A stretch of 64,000 nt of DNA from Cystobacter fuscus (GTDB lineage Bacteria; Myxococcota; Myxococcia; Myxococcales; Myxococcaceae), in contig NZ_CP022098.1 of the NCBI RefSeq assembly GCF_002305875.1, positions 4,774,001 to 4,838,000 of the forward strand, in the 5' to 3' direction. Numbering within the stretch: the stretch's first letter is position 1; every line of letters starts with the position of its first letter. Of this stretch, positions 24,167 through 34,498 are shown piece after piece. The translations under genes were made by a program, and so were the position numbers. The notes below the pieces were generated by a model that saw only the letters and a list, made by a program, of their open reading frames with translations, was not told the origin of the DNA and made no database searches.

Positions 24167-26743
24167 TCACGGTTCGGGGCCGCCTGGAGAATCGAGGCTT
24201 GCCGAGCGCCCGGTTTCGAGGACGCGCGCGAGGAAGGGCGCGGTGCGGCTCTTCACCACGCGTGCCACCTGCGCGGGGGTTCCGGAGACGACCACCCGGC
24301 CTCCCTCGGCACCGGCGCCCGGGCCGATGTCGATGACCCAGTCGCTCTGTGCCACGACGCGCATGTCGTGCTCGACGAGGATGACGGTGTTGCCCTGCTC
24401 GACCAGCCCGTTGAGCTGCGTCAGCAGCTTCTCGACGTCCGCGGGGTGCAGGCCCGTGGTGGGCTCGTCCAGGACGTAGAGCGTGTTGCCGCGCTGCACC
24501 CGCTGAAGCTCCGTGGCGAGTTTGATCCGCTGGGCCTCGCCGCCGGACAGCTCGGTCGCGGGCTGGCCCAGGCGCAGGTAGCCGAGGCCCACGTCCCGCA
24601 GGACACTCAAGGCGCGTTGCACGTGGGGCTCGTCGGCGAAGAACGCGTGCGCTCCGTCCACCGTCATGCCCAACACGTCGGCGATGCTCTGGTCCCTGTA
24701 TTTGATTTCCAGCGTCTTCGCGTTGTAGCGGGCGCCGTGGCACGTGGGGCAGGGGGCGAACACATCGGGCAGGAAGATCAGCTCCACGCTGACGAAGCCC
24801 TCGCCCTCGCATGTCTCGCAGCGTCCCTTGGGCACGTTGAAGGAGAACCGTCCCGCGTCATAGCGGCGGGAGCGCGCGGCCGGTGTCGCGGCGAAGAGCT
24901 TCCGGATGGTGTCGAAGAGCCCCGTGTAGGTCGCCAGATTGGAGCGCGGGGTGCGGCCGATCGGCTTCTGATCCACCCGCACCAGGCGCGTGACGCCTTC
25001 CAGTCCCGAGGAGATCCGGCCGCCCACCGGCTCGACGGGAGGACGCTCCAGCTCCTCGCCTTCCTCTTCCTCCGGGGGCGGCGCATGGCCCAGCCGCGCC
25101 GACACCAGCTCCACCAGTACCTGGCTCACGAGGCTCGACTTGCCCGAGCCGGAGATGCCCGTCACCGTCGTGAACACGCCCAGCGGGAAGTCCACGTCGA
25201 GCGCGTGCAGGTTGTTGCGGCTGACGCCTTCCAGGCGCAGCCAGCCCCGGGGCGAGCGGGGTTCGCGTCCCGGAGCCTCGTCGTGTCCGAGGAGATAGCG
25301 GCGGGTCTGGGACTGCTCGATGCGCTCGAGCCCCTCGGGCGGACCGCTGTAGAGCACGTGGCCCCCCTGTTCGCCCGCCGCCGGTCCCACGTCGACGATC
25401 CAGTCCGCCTCGCGAATCACCTCCACCTCGTGCTCGACCACGAAGAGGGAGTTGCCGGCGTTCTTCAGTTGTCCGAGCGCCGCGAGCAACGCCTGGGTGT
25501 CCGCCGGATGGAGGCCCGCGGAGGGCTCGTCGAGCACGTACACCACGCCGAACAACTGGGAGCGGATCTGCGTGGCGAGCCGCAGCCGTTGCAGCTCTCC
25601 GGGCGAGAGGGTGGGGGTGCTGCGCTCGAGCGACAGGTAGCCGAGCCCCAGCTCGGTCAGCACCTGGATGCGCCCCAGCAGTTCGCGAGCGAACCGCTCG
25701 GCGACGAGCGCCTTCTCCGGGTGCTCCCGCCGCAGCTTCGCCATCCCCGGTGCCGTGCCCTCCACCGTGGGGCGCAGCACCTCGGCGACGCGGGTGAGGG
25801 GCAGCCGTGACAGCTCGCCGATGTCCAGGCCCGCGAAGGTGACGGAGAGCGCCTCACGGCGCAGCCGCTTGCCCTCGCACTCGGGGCACTCGGTGCTCAG
25901 CAGGTAGCGCGACACCCGCTTCTTGATGGACGCGCTCTCCGTGGTGGCGAAGGTCTGCAACACATAGCGGCGGGCGCTCGTGAACGTGCCCATGTAGCTG
26001 GGCGGCTCCTTGCGCTTGAGCGCCCGGCGCGTCTCCGCGGGGGTGAAGCCGGCGTACACCGGAACGGTGGGCTGCTCCTCCGTGAAGAGGATCCAGTCCC
26101 GGTCCTTCTGGGGCAGCTCGCGCCAGGGACGATCCACGTCGTAGCCGAGCGACACGAGGATGTCGCGCAGGTTCTGGCCGTGCCAGGCGGGGGGCCACGC
26201 GGCGATCGCCCGCTCGCGGATGGTGAGCGAGTCATCCGGCACCATGGAGCGCTCGGTGGCCTCGTAGATGCGCCCGAGCCCGTGGCAGCGCGGACAAGCG
26301 CCCGCGGGCGTGTTGGGCGAGAACGCCTCCGCGGCGAGGTGCTCCTGATGGGGCGGATAGTGTCCGGCGCGCGAATAGAGCAGGCGCAGCGAGTTGGACA
26401 GCGTGGTGACGCTGCCCACGGACGAGCGCGTCGTGGGCGAGCCACGCTGCTGCTGGAGCGCCACCGCCGGGGGCAGGCCCTCGATGGAGTCGACCTCGGG
26501 CACACCCACCTGATCCATCAGCCGCCGCGCATAGGGGGCCACGGACTCGAAGTAGCGCCGCTGGGCCTCCGCGTAGAGCGTGCCGAACGCGAGCGACGAC
26601 TTGCCCGAGCCCGACACGCCCGTGAAGACGACCAGCGCATCGCGCGGGATGTCGACGTCGACGTTCTTGAGGTTGTTCTCGCGGGCGCCACGGACCCTGA
26701 CGACGCCCTTCACTCCACCGCCACCACCACCACCATCGGGCAT
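24167..26743 (-). CDS. short UvrA-like ABC ATPase (excinuclease A paralogue)
   Basis: An 858-residue twin-ABC protein. Walker A sites are [12 protein letters not shown] (N-terminal) and [11 protein letters not shown] (middle). ABC signatures are [11 protein letters not shown], slightly altered, and [11 protein letters not shown]. Zinc-binding Cys pairs include CPRCHG, CPECEG and CETCEG...CPTCHG. UvrA proper has about 940-970 residues, and this one is about 100 shorter with a reduced insertion region, as in UvrA2/DrrC-type paralogues linked to drug or DNA-damage tolerance. It would bind DNA in the cytoplasm; repair activity is unproven. ATG 26743 lies 8 bases after the MMPL stop, making it the last gene of the sterol unit. 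A run of Gly codons follows the start. Confidence 0.85.
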
Positions 26744-26751
26744 GCTGGAAC

Positions 26752-29016
26752 TCACTGTTTCGGGGCTTCGGGCCGCGAGTCCTCGGGGGCGTGGGTGCCG
26801 CCGAGCAGGCGCACGAGTGGCGCGGGGGCCCACCAGTTGAACTCCCCCATGAGCCGCATCATCGCGGGGACGATGAGCACCCGGACGAGCGTGGCGTCCA
26901 GGGCCACGGCGATGGCCATGCCCACGCCCATGGCCTTCACCACCACCGCCTGGGCGAGCGAGAACGCCGCGAACACCGCGACCATGATGGCGGCGGCGCT
27001 GGTGATGAGGCGGCCCGTGCGCTCCAGGCCCTCGGCCACCGAGTGCGCGTTGTCGTGCGTGCGCAGCCACTCCTCGCGCATGCGCGTGAGCAGCAGGACC
27101 TCGTAGTCCATGGACAGGCCGAAGAGCGCGCAGAACAGGAGGATGGGCAGCGAGGGCTCGATGGCGCGCGGCTCGAACGCGAGCAGGCCGCTCAGGTGGC
27201 CTTCCTGGAAGATCCACACCAGCGCGCCGAACGAGCCCGCGATGGACAGCAGGTTCATCAGGAGCGCCTTGAGCGGGAGGATCACCGAGCGAAGCAGCAC
27301 GAACAGCACCACGTAGGTGAGCCCCATGACGAAGAGCACCGCGTGGGGCGAGTGCCCGACGATGAAGGCCGCGCCGTCCACGTCCGCCGCCGTCTGGCCA
27401 CCCACGAGGAACTGCCCGTCACCCACCGCGCGCTCCTGGCGGATGGCGCGGACGACTTCACGGGCCTCGGCGCTCGCGGCCGCATGGGGCGTGAGCACCT
27501 GCATCACCGCGATGTTTCCCTTGATGAATGCCTCGAGCGCGAGATCGAACTCGGGCGGCCGGGCGGCGGGCTCCTCGGCCAGCGCGGCGTAGCGGTTCGC
27601 GCTGATGCCCGGGTCCAGGTCGACGATGCTCTCCACGCCCTGGACCCCGGGGAGTTTGGCCAGGCGGCGGCTCGTGGCGTACAGCGCGCGGGCGCGCTCC
27701 GGGGTGAAGGCGTCGCCCGAGGGGAACTGGACCGTCACCAGGATGCGTGTGGCGGCCTGCGAGGGAAACAGGTTCTTGAGGGCCTCGGCGCCGCGCCGTG
27801 CCTCCGTTTCGGCGGGCAGGGCGGTGATGTCCGTGGCGGCGAGCTGGAGCCGCTGGAAGGGAAGGCCAATGGCCACGAGCACGGTGAGCGTGGGCAACAG
27901 CACGAGCCAGGGGTGCTTCATCACCCACATGGCCAGCCGGTGCCAGAGGCCCTTGCCCTCGCCGAAGCGCGGAATGGGCAGGCGGCCCCAGTCCACCCGG
28001 GGGCCGAGCACGGACAGGAGCGCGGGCAGGAACGTGAGGGAGTAGATCACCGCGAACGCCACCACGACGGCCCCGCCCAGGCCCATGGCGCTCAGGTACG
28101 AGCCTGGGTAGAAGAGCAACCCCGACAGGCCCACCGCCACCGCGAGGCCGGAGAACGCCACCGCGCGGCCCGCCGTGTCCACCGTCTTCACCACCGCCGC
28201 CTCCACCGTGGCGCCGTGCTCGAGCTCGTCACGGAAGCGGCTCACGATGAAGAGCGAATAGTCGATCGCCACGCCCAGGCCGATGAGCGTCACGACGTTG
28301 ATGGTGTACTGCGCCATGTCCGTCACGTGCGCGAGCAGCATCACGCCCGACACGCCCGTCATCACCGCGAGCCCGCCCACGGCGATGGGCAGCAGCGACG
28401 CGCCCAGGGTGCGGAACACCCACAGCAGCACGATCAACGCGAGGGGGAAGGAGATGAGCTCCGCCTTGAGCAGATCATGCTCGAGCAGCCGATCCAACGC
28501 CTCCACGAAGGCGACCTTGCCCGTCACCAGCACGCCGAGCTTGTCGCTGGTGAGCGCCCGGCGCACGGTGGGGAAGGCGCGCGCCGCCTCGCGCTCGTCG
28601 CCCTTGAGCCGCACGAGCGCCAGCACGTCATGGCCGCTGGCGGAGAGGAGCCGGCTGGCGAGCTGCTCGGGGGCGCCCTGGGGGGACACCACGGCGCTCA
28701 CCTCGGGCAGCTTGCCCACGGGGCCGAGCACCTCCTCCAGTGCCTGGGTGAAGCGCGCGTCGTCCGTCTTCCACTCGTCCGAGTGGAAGATGACGGCGAG
28801 CGTGGTGTCGTTGGACGCCGCGGAGATGCCCCGCGACAGCTCCGCCGCGTGTGCCGCTTCCGTCCCCCGCACCGTGCCGGTGCTCAACTGTCCGCCGCGC
28901 AGGATGCCGAGGAGCGCGAGGACGAGCACTCCCGCGGTGAGGAGGAAGACCACGCCGCGGTGGCGGTGAACCGCCCGGCCGAGCCAGGCGAAGACGGAGG
29001 GTTCCGAGGGCGTCAT
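26752..29016 (-). CDS. MMPL-family RND transporter (candidate sterol/triterpenoid exporter)
   Basis: A 754-residue inner-membrane protein with two copies of the MMPL/SSD-like six-helix block (about 185-360 and 560-730), each preceded by a large periplasmic loop and by helix TM1 or TM7. Typical motifs are [18 protein letters not shown] and [18 protein letters not shown], with the proton-relay Asp-Tyr pair in both. Family members export lipids and hydrophobic molecules, including the hopanoid transporter HpnN and the bacterial sterol transporter BstA. It is 11 bases downstream of the cyclase gene and clearly co-transcribed, so a role in moving the cyclised triterpenoid between membranes is a reasonable inference. 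Drug export coupled to the UvrA paralogue is an alternative. Confidence 0.85.
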
Positions 29017-29027
29017 GGACGCGCTGT

Positions 29028-30989
29028 CTACCGCACTGGCGACAGGGCCCAGAGCGGAAACACGTCGAGGTAGTGATCGTAGTGGATGCCGCTCGTCTTA
29101 TTGAACATCCCCGCGATGTGCTCCTCGGGGTAGCTGCCGTCCGGACGCTGCCGCTCCACGAGGAAGCCCAGGGCGCGCTGGACCTCGGGCGAGTCGCGCC
29201 GGCCCGCCTTGCTCAACGCGAGCACCGCCCACGACGTCATCACCGCCTGGCCCTGCTCGGCCTGCACGTAGCGCCGCTGCCGGCAGCTCTCGGGTGTCTC
29301 GCCCCAGCTCCCGTCCGCGTTCTGCTTGGAGAGCAGGAAGTCGCAGGCGCGCTGGAGGGTCGGATGACTCGGAGAGTACCCCGCGGCGACGAGGCCCCAG
29401 ATGCCGAACCACGCCCCATACGTGAAGCAGATGCCCCAGCTTCCCTCCCACGAGCCGTCCGGTCGCTGGGCCCGCTCCACGTAGCGCGCGCCGCGCTTCA
29501 TCGCCGCGTCGATCTCCTTCGCGCGTACCCCCGGGAAGCGCTCCCGGAAGCGCGCCAGCGCCTGCATGCAGGACGAGCTGCACTCGACGTAGGACGGGTC
29601 GATCATGATGTCCGAGAAGCAATCGGACGGGTTGAGCAGCTCGAGCCACTTGGGGCCGCGCGTGAGCTCGTACGTGGCCCAGCCGCCGTCCTCGTTCTGC
29701 ATGGACAGCATCAGGTCCACCGCGTCCGTGAGCCGCTCCTGGGACAGGGGCGAGTCGACGAAGGGCTCGAGCGCGAGCGCCGCCTTGAGGCCCTCGGCGG
29801 TGCAGTCGCTGATGGGCCAGCCGTGGTCGCGCGTGGAGAAGGGCCAGCCGCCCTTGGAGCGGTGGCGGTAGTAGCGCTCGGCGTTGGGCGTGTCCTCGCG
29901 CACCTGGCTGCGGTCGATGAAGTCGAAGACCGAGCGCAAGAACGGCAGGTTCTCCTGGATGCGGCCGCTGGCGACCACCGCCTGGGCGGCGAACGCCGTG
30001 TCCCAGAGCTCCGAGGAGTTGTAGCCATTCATCTTCACGCCGTCCGGCCCCTTCCACAGGTAGTCGGGGAGCTGGGCGAGGTGGGCCCGCAGCTCGGCGC
30101 CGCCGGGACGCTCGAAGTGCCACACCAGCACGTGCAAGAGCTTGTTCACCGGGCCGATGCAGATGTAGCGCGTGTTCTCGTCCTCCTGGCGGATGTGATC
30201 CAACACGAAGGACAGGGAGCGCTCGCGCAGCCGCGTGGACGCCTGGGTCTCATAGACACCCATGAGCCAGTTGGCCGCGAGCACGAGCGCCGAGCGCGGC
30301 ACCTGCGAGTCGGTGGGCGACACGCGCGTGCGCTGGGCCGGCCAGTCGATCTGCTCGTAGGGCGTCGTGTACAGCTCCCGGCGCAACTGCTGGAGCAGGG
30401 GCGAGTCGGGGATGCGCGCCTTCTTGCCGTAGAGCCAGCTCATGGGCAGGTAGACCATGCGGCAGTGGCACCAGAAGCGCGAGGGGTGCACGGGAAGCGC
30501 CTCGGGCAGCAGCCACAGCTCGGGCAGGAGCGGATCCAACCCCTCGTACTCGTGCAGGCGGAGCACCGAGAGGAAGAACTTGCCCCAGGGCGCGGAGGTG
30601 AGCGCGCCTCCGTGCGCGAGGATCCACTGGCGCGCGGACGTGGCGGCGGGGTCCTCCGCGCTCACGCCGAGCAGACGCAGGGCCACGTAGCAGAGGGTGG
30701 AGGTGAAGACGTAGCTGGACGCCTCCACGTGCAGACCGAAGCCGCCGTCCTTGTTCTGCACGCCCTTGAGGTAGCGCACCATGCCCTCGCGCGTGGCGGC
30801 ATCGAGCTCGAGCCCCACGGCGTGCGCGGTGCCCACGTACATGGGCAGCATGAAGAGGGGACCGCCATAGTCGCCCTTGAGCGAGCCCTCCGGGGAGAGC
30901 AGCTCCGAGAGGTGGGTGATGGCGGCGGAGAGGGAGGAGTCGACCGTGCGCCGCGCGCCGGCAGTGGAATCAGGAGCCATGTTGCGCAT
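29028..30989 (-). CDS. 2,3-oxidosqualene cyclase, cycloartenol synthase type
   Basis: A 653-residue terpene cyclase/mutase of two alpha-barrel domains with QW repeats (QNKDGGFG, QNEDGGWATYE, QRPDGSWEGSWG, QNADGSWGE, QRPDGSYPEE). The acid motif is SDCTAE with Asp395, as in oxidosqualene cyclases; the DXDD motif of squalene-hopene cyclases is absent. Residues aligned with the plant cycloartenol synthase determinants Tyr410, His477 and Ile481 are Tyr323 (GYNSSELWDT), His389 and Ile393 (DHGWPISDCTAE). The enzyme should cyclise (S)-2,3-oxidosqualene to cycloartenol at the membrane. Stigmatella is known to make cycloartenol. ATG 30989 has AAGGAA about 7 bases upstream. It lies 17 bases downstream of the gene that would make its substrate. 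Confidence 0.9.
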   Translation of the reverse strand: MRNMAPDSTAGARRTVDSSLSAAITHLSELLSPEGSLKGDYGGPLFMLPMYVGTAHAVGLELDAATREGMVRYLKGVQNKDGGFGLHVEASSYVFTSTLCYVALRLLGVSAEDPAATSARQWILAHGGALTSAPWGKFFLSVLRLHEYEGLDPLLPELWLLPEALPVHPSRFWCHCRMVYLPMSWLYGKKARIPDSPLLQQLRRELYTTPYEQIDWPAQRTRVSPTDSQVPRSALVLAANWLMGVYETQASTRLRERSLSFVLDHIRQEDENTRYICIGPVNKLLHVLVWHFERPGGAELRAHLAQLPDYLWKGPDGVKMNGYNSSELWDTAFAAQAVVASGRIQENLPFLRSVFDFIDRSQVREDTPNAERYYRHRSKGGWPFSTRDHGWPISDCTAEGLKAALALEPFVDSPLSQERLTDAVDLMLSMQNEDGGWATYELTRGPKWLELLNPSDCFSDIMIDPSYVECSSSCMQALARFRERFPGVRAKEIDAAMKRGARYVERAQRPDGSWEGSWGICFTYGAWFGIWGLVAAGYSPSHPTLQRACDFLLSKQNADGSWGETPESCRQRRYVQAEQGQAVMTSWAVLALSKAGRRDSPEVQRALGFLVERQRPDGSYPEEHIAGMFNKTSGIHYDHYLDVFPLWALSPVR

Positions 30990-31006: not shown

Positions 31007-34000
31007 TTACCCGGCCGAGAGGCGTTGGTGGTGGTTGGGCGCCTGGAGCCAGAGCTCCGCGTAGCGGGCCTGGAGCGTGGTGTCATCGGCGTGGTGGTTC
31101 ATGCAGTCGGTGATGAGCGCCTCCACCTCCGCGCGGGGAATCTTCACCGGCTGGCCCGCGACGAACATGGCGTCGTTGCCCCGGGCGAGCACGAGCGTGC
31201 GCGCCGCCATCCACAGCGGCAGCAGGCAGAAGAGCCGCAACTGGGGCGCGGTGGCGGGGATGGCGAGCGCATAGCTCAGCCCGTCGTCGAGGTTCTTCCG
31301 GGCGATCTCGAAGAGCGGCGCGACGGCGGCGTGCGCCCGGGCACGCTGCGCGGGGTCCGTCAGCTCCGCCACGCCCAGGCCGCCCGCGGCGCACAGGGCG
31401 CGGGGGATGAAGGACCAGCCCCGCTCCTCGCGATCGTCCGTCACGTCCTTGAGGATGTTGACGAGCTGGAGCCCGGTGCCGAAGGCCTCCGCGTGCAGGC
31501 GCATCGTCTGGGCCTGCTCCGGCGTCACCTCGCCGCCCAGCTCCTCCAGGAACAGCTCCGTCGTCAGGTGGCCCACGGTGCCCGCCACGAAGTAGCAGTA
31601 GCGCTCCAGGTCGGCCACCGTGTGCAGCGCCACGATGTCGTCGGCGCCGCGCTCCCGGTGGGCGTAGATGGCCATGCCGCGCGCCATCTCCGACGTCCAG
31701 CGCGCCAGGCTCGCCTGGATGTTCTCCGGCAGCGTGTGGAAGACGCGCATGACGGTGGGCAGGGCGCGCGACAGGGCCAGCTCGGCGTCCTGGCCCACAA
31801 TGGGCTTGAACGCCTCGGTGAAGGCCTCCGGCTCCTTGTGGCCGCGCAGCACGTCCAGGAAGCACGCGAAGAGCGGCTCCTTGGCGGCGAGCGGCACGGA
31901 CGGGTGGTCCTCGATGGTGTCGGCGACGCGGCACAGCAGGTAGCCCAGCGTCATGGCCACCTCGAGGTTGCCGGGCAGCAGGGCGATGGGCCGCGCGAAG
32001 GTGCGCGAGACCTCGCCGAGGCTCTCCTTGCAGAAGATCCAATCCGCCTCGGAGCGGCCGGAAGGAACGGACGGAGCGGAGGTCGCGCGGCGCAGGGGCT
32101 CGGGCCGCTCGCGCCGCAGGGTCTCGTAGAGCGCGAGTGCGTCGAGGCTCTCCGCGCACTCCTCCCAGGGCGCGACCTGGAACGGGCCTCGTGCCTCGTC
32201 GTGGAGGCCCTCGGCGAGCGCCGTCGCGAGCAGGGCCTCCGCGGCCTCCATCGCCTCGGGGTAGGGGGCGCGCACGGAGATCAGGGCCTGGAGCGCGATC
32301 GCCGTGAGCCACCGGCGCTCGGCGTCCCCCTGGACGGGGATTCCTTCCGTGAAGGCACCGTCCTCGGCCTGCCGCTCGACGAGCCAGCGCGCCGCGCGGC
32401 GCAGCCGGGAGTGCGTGGTGGGTCCCCTGGCGGCGAGCAGGGCCTCCATGGCCCACGCCGTGGCGGCGACACGGCCCTCGGAGCCGAGGGGGGCCCAGGA
32501 GCCGTCGGGCGACTGCGTCTCGCTCAGCCAGCGGGCCGCGCGCTCGAGCGCGGGAGTGATGCGCGCGTCGAACATGCCGGGCTGCCGGCGCTGGATGATC
32601 TTCAACGCCTCGCAGGCCAGGGCGGTGGCGCGCAGCTCCCCCACGCCCCGGCCGCCCGCGCGCGTCCTGTCGAAGGTCCGGGCCGCGAAGCCGCCGGCCA
32701 TCGTCTGGCACCCGAGCAACACGTCCACGCCCTCGGAGATGCCCACGATGGGCTCCTGCACCCAGGTGGAGCCGCCCAGCAGCAGGTGGAAGAGTCCGGC
32801 GAGGTCCGCCGTGGCGATGGAGGGCGGCTGGGCACCCGGAGCCTCGTGCTCCTCGAGCTCGAGCAGGCGCCGCAGGCCCTCGTGCGCGAGGTGGCGGCGC
32901 CACAGGCTCATCCGCGCCGAGATGCCCGCGCGCATGTCCGTGCGGGTGATGGCGCGCATGACGCGGATCGCCCCCGCGCGCAGCATGTCATCCGGCCGCT
33001 GCTTGAGCTGCGTGGCGAAGGACTCCAGCTCCCGGAGGAGGAAATCCGTGGCCTGCTCCATGGCCTGGGCGAGCGGCGGGGGCGGGGCCTGGCGGCGCGG
33101 GGAGGGCTCTCCCTCCTCCGCCTCGCTCCGGAGCATGTCCCGCACGGGGATGAACTCCTTGAGCAGGGGAATGGGGTGGGTGGGGGTGCCACGTCCGCGG
33201 TAGCGCTGATGCACCCCGCCCGGCACGAGGCTGGCGGCGGGCCACTGCATCCACTCGCCATACGCGGCCAGCTCGGTGGACACACTCTTGAGCCCGCCGC
33301 GGCGTATCGCCGAGCGCGCCGTGCTGTTCATGGCCTCCGCGGCGATGCGCATGAAGATGCCGCCGAAGCTCGACGTGCGCTCCTCCTGGCCACAGAGGAT
33401 GCGCATCGTCTGGCCGCGCGCCTCGGCGTTCTCGCGCAGCACGTCGAACATGGCCTCGCGCACGCCCGTGGCGCTCGGATCCTCGCGTCGGAAGCAGTGG
33501 TAGAGAGCGCTGGCGAGCAGCTCCGGCACGTAGCCGCGGCGCTCCTCGGCGTAGCGCTCGAGGTCCTCGTGCGCGGCCACGCTGCGCGCGTCGAGGAAGC
33601 CCATGCTCAGGCCGATGGCGGTCATCGGGTGCACGTGGCCGAGCGCGTCGCCCACGAGCGCGACGTGGCCCCGGCCGAAGTCGGAGCGCGGACGGAAGCG
33701 GTTGGCGGCCCAGGTGACGGGGCCCTCGGCGAGCGCGCGCCGGAAGGCGGGCAGCAGCGCGGGAGGCAACACCGGGCTGAAGGCATCCCACAGGAAGGTG
33801 GGGTTGCGCTGGGCCGCGCCGTAGCGCAGGGGCACGTCCAGGCAGCCCCGCACCCGATCGGGGCCGATCCGGTAGAGGAGCGCCGGTCCGGGACCGCCGA
33901 GCAGCACGTGCCCGAAGCCCTCGAAGGGCAGCTCCAGTCCGCGCAGCTCCACCGAGGCCATATAGGAGAGCAGCGTGCTGTTCTCCTCCAGGCCGAGCTG

Positions 34001-34498
34001 CCGGCGCACCACGGACGCCCGTCCATCCGCCCCGATGATGCGCGCCGCGGTGACCTCCACCTGGGCGCCCCGCTCCCGGTCATCCACGCGCAGCACGTGC
34101 CCTTCCATGCCCGCCAGCCGTGCGTACGTCACCAGCTCCACGCCCGCCAGGCCCGCGGCCTCCTCGCGCAGCCCCTCGACCAGGGTGTCGTGGGCACACG
34201 TGAGCGCCACGCCCTGGGGGTAGGCCATCTCGATGGGCGTGCTGCCATCGTCCGGGAAGATCTTGAAGCCGAAGCTCGTGCGGGCGTGGGCCCAGTCCGA
34301 GCGGCGGATGCGCAGCGAGTCGAGCACGCCGACCCCCGGGGGGTGGATGAACTCGCCCGCGAAGCGCCGACACGCTTGCGGATTGGCCTCGAGCACGAGC
34401 ACCCGCGCGCCCCGGTGGGCGAAGGCGATGGCGGTGACCAGTCCCGCGGGCCCTCCGCCGATGACCGCCACGTCGTAGTGCTTTCGTGTGAATCTCAT
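31007..34498 (-). CDS. squalene epoxidase-like / squalene synthase fusion
   Basis: A 1,163-residue fusion. Residues 1-~420 are an FAD monooxygenase: VIGGGPAGLVTA (dinucleotide fold), GADGRASVVRRQLG (DG motif), ALVGDALGHVHP with Asp284 (GD motif). Residues ~480-810 form a helical region with QW-like repeats (QSPDGSWAP, QAEDGAFTE) resembling half of a terpene-cyclase barrel but lacking catalytic acids. Residues ~815-1150 are a squalene/phytoene synthase with both Asp-rich motifs, DTIED (860-864) and KDVTDD (Asp1018, 1021, 1022). It could make squalene from farnesyl diphosphate and epoxidise it. Plain squalene or phytoene synthesis plus another oxidation is possible. ATG 34498 is chosen because the flavin fold begins right after it; the ribosome site is weak. 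Confidence 0.85.
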   Translation of the reverse strand: MRFTRKHYDVAVIGGGPAGLVTAIAFAHRGARVLVLEANPQACRRFAGEFIHPPGVGVLDSLRIRRSDWAHARTSFGFKIFPDDGSTPIEMAYPQGVALTCAHDTLVEGLREEAAGLAGVELVTYARLAGMEGHVLRVDDRERGAQVEVTAARIIGADGRASVVRRQLGLEENSTLLSYMASVELRGLELPFEGFGHVLLGGPGPALLYRIGPDRVRGCLDVPLRYGAAQRNPTFLWDAFSPVLPPALLPAFRRALAEGPVTWAANRFRPRSDFGRGHVALVGDALGHVHPMTAIGLSMGFLDARSVAAHEDLERYAEERRGYVPELLASALYHCFRREDPSATGVREAMFDVLRENAEARGQTMRILCGQEERTSSFGGIFMRIAAEAMNSTARSAIRRGGLKSVSTELAAYGEWMQWPAASLVPGGVHQRYRGRGTPTHPIPLLKEFIPVRDMLRSEAEEGEPSPRRQAPPPPLAQAMEQATDFLLRELESFATQLKQRPDDMLRAGAIRVMRAITRTDMRAGISARMSLWRRHLAHEGLRRLLELEEHEAPGAQPPSIATADLAGLFHLLLGGSTWVQEPIVGISEGVDVLLGCQTMAGGFAARTFDRTRAGGRGVGELRATALACEALKIIQRRQPGMFDARITPALERAARWLSETQSPDGSWAPLGSEGRVAATAWAMEALLAARGPTTHSRLRRAARWLVERQAEDGAFTEGIPVQGDAERRWLTAIALQALISVRAPYPEAMEAAEALLATALAEGLHDEARGPFQVAPWEECAESLDALALYETLRRERPEPLRRATSAPSVPSGRSEADWIFCKESLGEVSRTFARPIALLPGNLEVAMTLGYLLCRVADTIEDHPSVPLAAKEPLFACFLDVLRGHKEPEAFTEAFKPIVGQDAELALSRALPTVMRVFHTLPENIQASLARWTSEMARGMAIYAHRERGADDIVALHTVADLERYCYFVAGTVGHLTTELFLEELGGEVTPEQAQTMRLHAEAFGTGLQLVNILKDVTDDREERGWSFIPRALCAAGGLGVAELTDPAQRARAHAAVAPLFEIARKNLDDGLSYALAIPATAPQLRLFCLLPLWMAARTLVLARGNDAMFVAGQPVKIPRAEVEALITDCMNHHADDTTLQARYAELWLQAPNHHQRLSAG

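Follow-up and report, generated by a model that had tools for sequence, protein, structure and literature searches.

A predicted cycloartenol synthase of Cystobacter fuscus lies in an operon with a fused epoxidase-synthase gene and a lipid transporter, and the pathway appears to have been replaced in place

The oxidosqualene cyclase of Cystobacter fuscus DSM 52655, a strain whose genome forms one contig of 12,349,744 bp (PMC5658505), belongs to a three-gene operon in which it is preceded by a gene that joins squalene epoxidase, a cyclase-like toroid and squalene synthase in one frame and is followed by an MmpL3-like transporter (Table 1). Judged by its residues, cycloartenol is the best prediction for its product, and almost certainly the right one. 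The locus is best read as one in which the genes for making cycloartenol were exchanged in place, while the transporter already there stayed and the predicted product remained the same; in the simplest account, the fused epoxidase-synthase gene, probably together with its own cyclase, took over the site of the native genes, next to a transporter that had been inherited vertically. Taken as a whole, this explanation (a cycloartenol synthase in a three-gene operon, fused upstream enzymes, a transporter and pathway replacement) is very likely correct. As far as the searched literature shows, it is the operon, with its fused gene and apparent replacement, that is new, and not the triad of product-site residues. 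The window is the whole stretch of DNA analysed, 64,000 nucleotides long, and all positions refer to it unless stated otherwise.

Table 1. Features of the cyclase operon, with positions in the window
Feature	Position	Strand	Basis or remark
Oxidosqualene cyclase, predicted cycloartenol synthase, 653 aa	29028..30989	-	Pfam SQHop_cyclase C/N, NCBIfam, human LSS, AF2 model
Tyr323 codon (human T381 / Arabidopsis Y410 position)	30021..30023	-	
His389 codon (human C449 / Arabidopsis H477 position)	29823..29825	-	
Ile393 codon (human V453 / Arabidopsis I481 position)	29811..29813	-	
DCTAE motif, catalytic Asp395	29793..29807	-	Asp395 codon = 29805-29807
Triple fusion, 1163 aa: squalene epoxidase + cyclase-like toroid + squalene synthase	31007..34498	-	Pfam; open frame and architecture kept in G001, G003
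Squalene epoxidase (FAD mono-oxygenase) domain	33173..34492	-	PF01494, PF08491; GGGPAG, VGDA motifs
Degenerate cyclase-like alpha-alpha toroid, approximate limits	32078..33070	-	PF13243 E=1.5e-7; squalene-hopene cyclase PDB matches E ~5e-9
Squalene synthase domain, DTIED and DVTDD aspartate motifs	31043..32050	-	PF00494 E=2e-44; squalene synthase 7wgh E=1e-21
MmpL3-like RND/MMPL lipid transporter	26752..29016	-	PF03176 E=1e-76; MmpL3 structures E=1.6e-81

A sequence-only reading of this DNA had assigned Tyr323, His389 and Ile393 to the positions that determine the product in plant cycloartenol synthase. The open reading frame coordinates and an alignment with the human lanosterol synthase of structure 1W6K (626 positions aligned, 48% of them identical; match to human LSS at E=1.5e-194) bear this out: the three residues face human Thr381, Cys449 and Val453, through whose numbering Arabidopsis Tyr410, His477 and Ile481 were equated with them. 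The span given for them, 29796-30023, places the residues exactly and stops one codon before Glu399 of DCTAE, which is immaterial. The claim that DCTAE stands in place of the hopene-cyclase DXDD was also correct, the motif beginning at Asp395; Asp395-Cys396 and Cys470 correspond to human D455, C456 and C533, making up a DCTAE-type acid motif with its supporting cysteine pair. The remaining catalytic positions checked (Tyr98, His232, Trp387, Phe444, Asp455, Cys456, Tyr503, Cys533, Trp581 and Phe696 in human numbering) are all kept. The Cystobacter and human enzymes thus share the fold and the catalytic residues checked but differ at the product sites, Y/H/I in the former and T/C/V in the latter.

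Family assignment and fold agree. The cyclase scores 621 bits on TIGR01787 (cut-off 323) and 820 bits on TIGR03463 (E=1e-246), just under the curated cut-off of 851; most myxobacterial relatives also fall below that value, so it is the cut-off that is tight and not the protein that is unusual. In its AlphaFold model (mean pLDDT 92.7), the enzyme is a two-domain alpha-alpha barrel; 644 residues superpose on 1W6K at 1.6 A (Z 49.2), a better fit than that to squalene-hopene cyclase (Z 43.7). With the TIGR03463 E value and this superposition, the likeness is one of family homology, not chance. An enzyme acting on a substrate other than oxidosqualene, be it a squalene-hopene cyclase or a further kind of triterpene cyclase, would share the common fold and a distant homology, but the probability of such an identity is negligible: the motif is DCTAE and not DXDD, TIGR01507 reaches 242 bits against a cut-off of 431, and an epoxidase adjoins the cyclase. 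Elsewhere in the genome, a smaller cyclase-like protein is found at G000:C1:5788474-5789091 (L002), in an open reading frame of 394 codons; this protein or a homologue may be the one in structure 8PAK, a 361-residue C. fuscus protein described as squalene-hopene cyclase.

Cycloartenol, the product that the sequence-only reading had predicted, agrees with published lipid data from the same species, and is already established for it: Wei et al. (2016; PMC4919349) measured cycloartenol in C. fuscus DSM 2262 cells, list D187_003104 of this strain as a cycloartenol synthase, and showed that every bacterial enzyme tested was sorted by Ile or Val at human position 453. In the same source, human positions 381, 449 and 453 read T/C,Q/V in lanosterol enzymes and Y/H/I in cycloartenol enzymes, and Bode et al. 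(2003) are cited for an earlier cloning of the Stigmatella enzyme. DSM 2262 is a different strain from DSM 52655, and the present cyclase adds one more strain only; in the passages of PMC4919349 covered here, neither the fused gene nor the transporter figures. The triad predicts the type of enzyme and not the sterol content of the cell, since Corallococcus coralloides, in which the cyclase gene is present, showed squalene only (PMC4919349). Among the three sites, the Ile/Val position is the informative one, as Wei et al. state.

The triad is not a rarity: Y/H/I is carried by 84 of 89 related bacterial loci, a set biased towards close relatives because the retrieval patterns included the DCTAE region, and the five exceptions have Y/Q/V, Y/N/V or E/Q/V. 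A gammaproteobacterial cyclase (L063, 6764-8947) has Glu/Gln/Val at these sites, unlike plant or animal enzymes. Across the 89 loci, His accompanies Ile in every case (84/84), and Val is always found together with Gln or Asn (5/5). Tyr, present in four of the five Val-type enzymes, does not discriminate among these loci. The three residues are therefore not three independent lines of evidence: His travels with Ile, and Tyr occurs in Val-type enzymes as well. Relatives of the cyclase at E <=1e-120 were found in 56 of the 195 Myxococcota genomes sampled.

In plant mutants, the purity of the product is set by second-shell positions as well, and not by the three residues alone. The Cystobacter enzyme could on this account make lanosterol, or a mixture of lanosterol, parkeol and 9beta-lanosta-7,24-dienol, despite its plant-type residues, and lanosterol was reported earlier from some other C. 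fuscus strains, according to work cited in PMC4919349. Such an outcome is nevertheless very improbable, given that Ile tracked cycloartenol in all bacteria tested by Wei et al., DSM 2262 included, and that His and Ile do not vary among 23 aligned sequences, which take in Methyloceanibacter, a genus that makes cycloartenol.

On the minus strand, the fused gene is separated from the cyclase by 17 bases, and the cyclase from the MMPL transporter by 11. The outer domains of the fused protein keep their FAD and aspartate-rich motifs intact and are assigned with ample margins: the epoxidase scores 68.5 bits on PF08491 (cut-off 20.1) and 88.8 bits on PF01494 (cut-off 22), and the synthase scores 152.7 bits on PF00494 (cut-off 26). 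The synthase falls below the cut-off of the TIGR01559 equivalog (115 against 287 bits), and it is the pathway context that points to squalene as its product. The toroid between them, modelled with low confidence in the predicted structure of the fused protein, was searched for DXDD and DCTAE, and neither was found. The fusion is not an artefact of assembly or a frameshift: the same open frame is present in two further Cystobacter genomes (G001 and G003; 92-98% identity across domains), the start MRFTRKHYDV is kept in all three, and the same epoxidase-toroid-synthase fusion, in the same gene order, recurs in the Polyangiaceae MAG OFTM3 (L039). Among the loci examined, the triple fusion is confined to the three Cystobacter genomes and this one Polyangiaceae genome bin; in the others, epoxidase and synthase are separate. 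The L039 epoxidase and synthase are 56% and 54% identical to those of Cystobacter, its toroid is more decayed, and its cyclase is not the closest to the Cystobacter cyclase in the tree. Neither the triple fusion nor an in-place replacement was described in the open-access literature searched.

A single protein that joins an epoxidase to a cyclase is encoded in genome G094 (L144:2849-6550, minus strand), where a frame of 1234 codons fuses squalene epoxidase to a full oxidosqualene cyclase and is predicted to be bifunctional; its epoxidase is 44% identical to that of the window, and its cyclase has DCTAE and His/Val at the product sites, without the Tyr. This protein hints that the toroid may be a decayed cyclase, and one may speculate that the toroid derives from an epoxidase-cyclase fusion of this kind. 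At the other end of the locus, the transporter is followed by an 858-residue ABC ATPase resembling UvrA (24167-26743, minus strand); of the loci examined, only those of the three Cystobacter genomes have it there, and although co-transcription is possible, it looks unrelated.

The transporter (258 bits on PF03176) has MmpL3 as its nearest solved structures (E=1.6e-81), and the far weaker match to HpnN (5e-5) argues against a hopanoid transporter of the HpnN type. Within the GTDB family, its orthologues at >=62% identity are found in exactly the 14 genomes that have a main-clade cyclase and in none of the 33 others, and in the 13 genomes with both genes on one contig they lie 24-5113 bases apart. 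The Fisher value for this co-occurrence, 3e-12, overstates independence because the genomes are related. The linkage is not limited to Myxococcaceae: in G189 (L145:7670-14489), a member of Myxococcota outside the family, cyclase, synthase, epoxidase and the same MMPL transporter lie side by side. It is reasonable to suppose from the linkage to the cyclase that the transporter exports or traffics cycloartenol, since a sterol RND transporter, BstA, exists in Methylococcus, where it is encoded near sterol genes and is said to resemble HpnN (PMC10942540). The Cystobacter protein, BstA and MmpL3, a trehalose monomycolate exporter, all belong to the MMPL/RND superfamily, and the latter two are lipid transporters; the Cystobacter protein is closer to MmpL3 than to HpnN.

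The history of the locus differs from gene to gene. The Stigmatella, Corallococcus, Myxococcus and Citreicoccus loci carry a divergently transcribed epoxidase, a separate synthase, a cyclase and an orthologous MMPL transporter. In Stigmatella aurantiaca DW4/3-1, presumably our locus L118, the cyclase (STAUR_5418) has Y/H/I, DCTAE and an adjacent MmpL-like transporter, as in Cystobacter, and is 57% identical to the Cystobacter enzyme; by contrast, its squalene synthase gene is separate and not fused, and its divergently transcribed epoxidase is only 29% identical. Mean identity between Cystobacter and Stigmatella, set against that between Stigmatella and Corallococcus, is 67% versus 68% for the transporter, 57% versus 68% for the cyclase, 37% versus 56% for the synthase and 29% versus 55% for the epoxidase. 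By these values, the transporter looks vertically inherited with those of Stigmatella and Corallococcus, although the base of its tree is poorly resolved. Epoxidase and synthase clearly are not: under the AU test, a Myxococcaceae clade with Cystobacter in it is rejected for both (p ~1e-90 and p ~1e-63), and in their trees Cystobacter stands beside the Polyangiaceae MAGs L039 and L042. The cyclase is probably not vertical with Stigmatella and Corallococcus either, a grouping with these two being rejected at p=6e-6. Pure vertical descent with Stigmatella and Corallococcus is therefore dismissed by the AU rejections for all three enzymes. In the Myxococcaceae MAG PMG_225 (L072:2758-6637), a second, truncated epoxidase and cyclase sequence lies beside an intact set, as if the locus had been partly duplicated.

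Whether the cyclase arrived with the fused gene is a separate matter. Placing Cystobacter as sister to all Myxococcaceae, L041 included, is compatible with the AU test (p=0.054), which would allow an old cyclase beside a newly acquired fused gene; the vertical neighbour, the transporter, is in keeping with this. That course is unlikely, if far from negligible, as the grouping of Cystobacter with Stigmatella, Corallococcus and G009 is rejected at p=0.0014 and the cyclases of Cystobacter and Stigmatella are less alike than those of Stigmatella and Corallococcus, whereas the transporters are equidistant. Tree conflict alone gives no direction, and the collinear order epoxidase-synthase-cyclase is also found in the Polyangiaceae MAG L042; the Cystobacter arrangement might accordingly be ancestral, the other Myxococcaceae having swapped in a divergent epoxidase and a separate synthase. 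We regard this reverse course as improbable: every other Myxococcaceae cyclase locus examined in this clade has the Stigmatella-type set, those of the deep MAGs L041 and L123 too, and a single change in Cystobacter is then simpler.

Residues, fold, order of the genes, fusion, conflict between the trees and linkage of the transporter are shown by the sequences and models, whereas the product, the activity of the fused domains, what the transporter does and which way the replacement ran are inferred from them. In the pathway proposed, the synthase domain of the fused protein would convert farnesyl diphosphate to squalene and its epoxidase domain squalene to 2,3-oxidosqualene, which the cyclase would turn into the protosteryl cation with Asp395 as the acid. 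His389 and Ile393, with Tyr323, would favour loss of the C19 proton and so closure of the cyclopropane ring of cycloartenol, and the transporter probably removes cycloartenol from the inner membrane. The Myxococcaceae pathway genes beside the resident transporter would have given way to the present epoxidase and synthase and, most likely, to the present cyclase as well. A more specific version is plausible, with the balance tilting somewhat against it: one polypeptide may carry FPP to oxidosqualene, its dead cyclase half serving as scaffold or substrate channel, and hand the product on to the adjacent cycloartenol synthase, the cassette having displaced native epoxidase, synthase and cyclase in place and left the native MmpL-type transporter to serve an unchanged product. 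As to other sterol genes, matches to the fatty-acid hydroxylase family were seen, which may or may not include a sterol C4 oxidase, and a search for ERG24 returned no match in the C. fuscus genome, nor in the control genomes, so that this negative carries no weight.

The sterol genes of Myxococcaceae have been described as vertically inherited on the strength of a cyclase tree with one vertical clade (PMC12004948), a view with consequences for the question whether early eukaryotes received their sterols from myxobacteria. At this same locus, the epoxidase and synthase of Cystobacter point to a different history, with the transporter as the fixed point, and the replacement reading would qualify the published single vertical clade of Myxococcaceae cyclases (PMC12004948). 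The fusion offers a ready-made tool for one-protein production of oxidosqualene, and the conserved transporter is a testable candidate for moving bacterial sterols.
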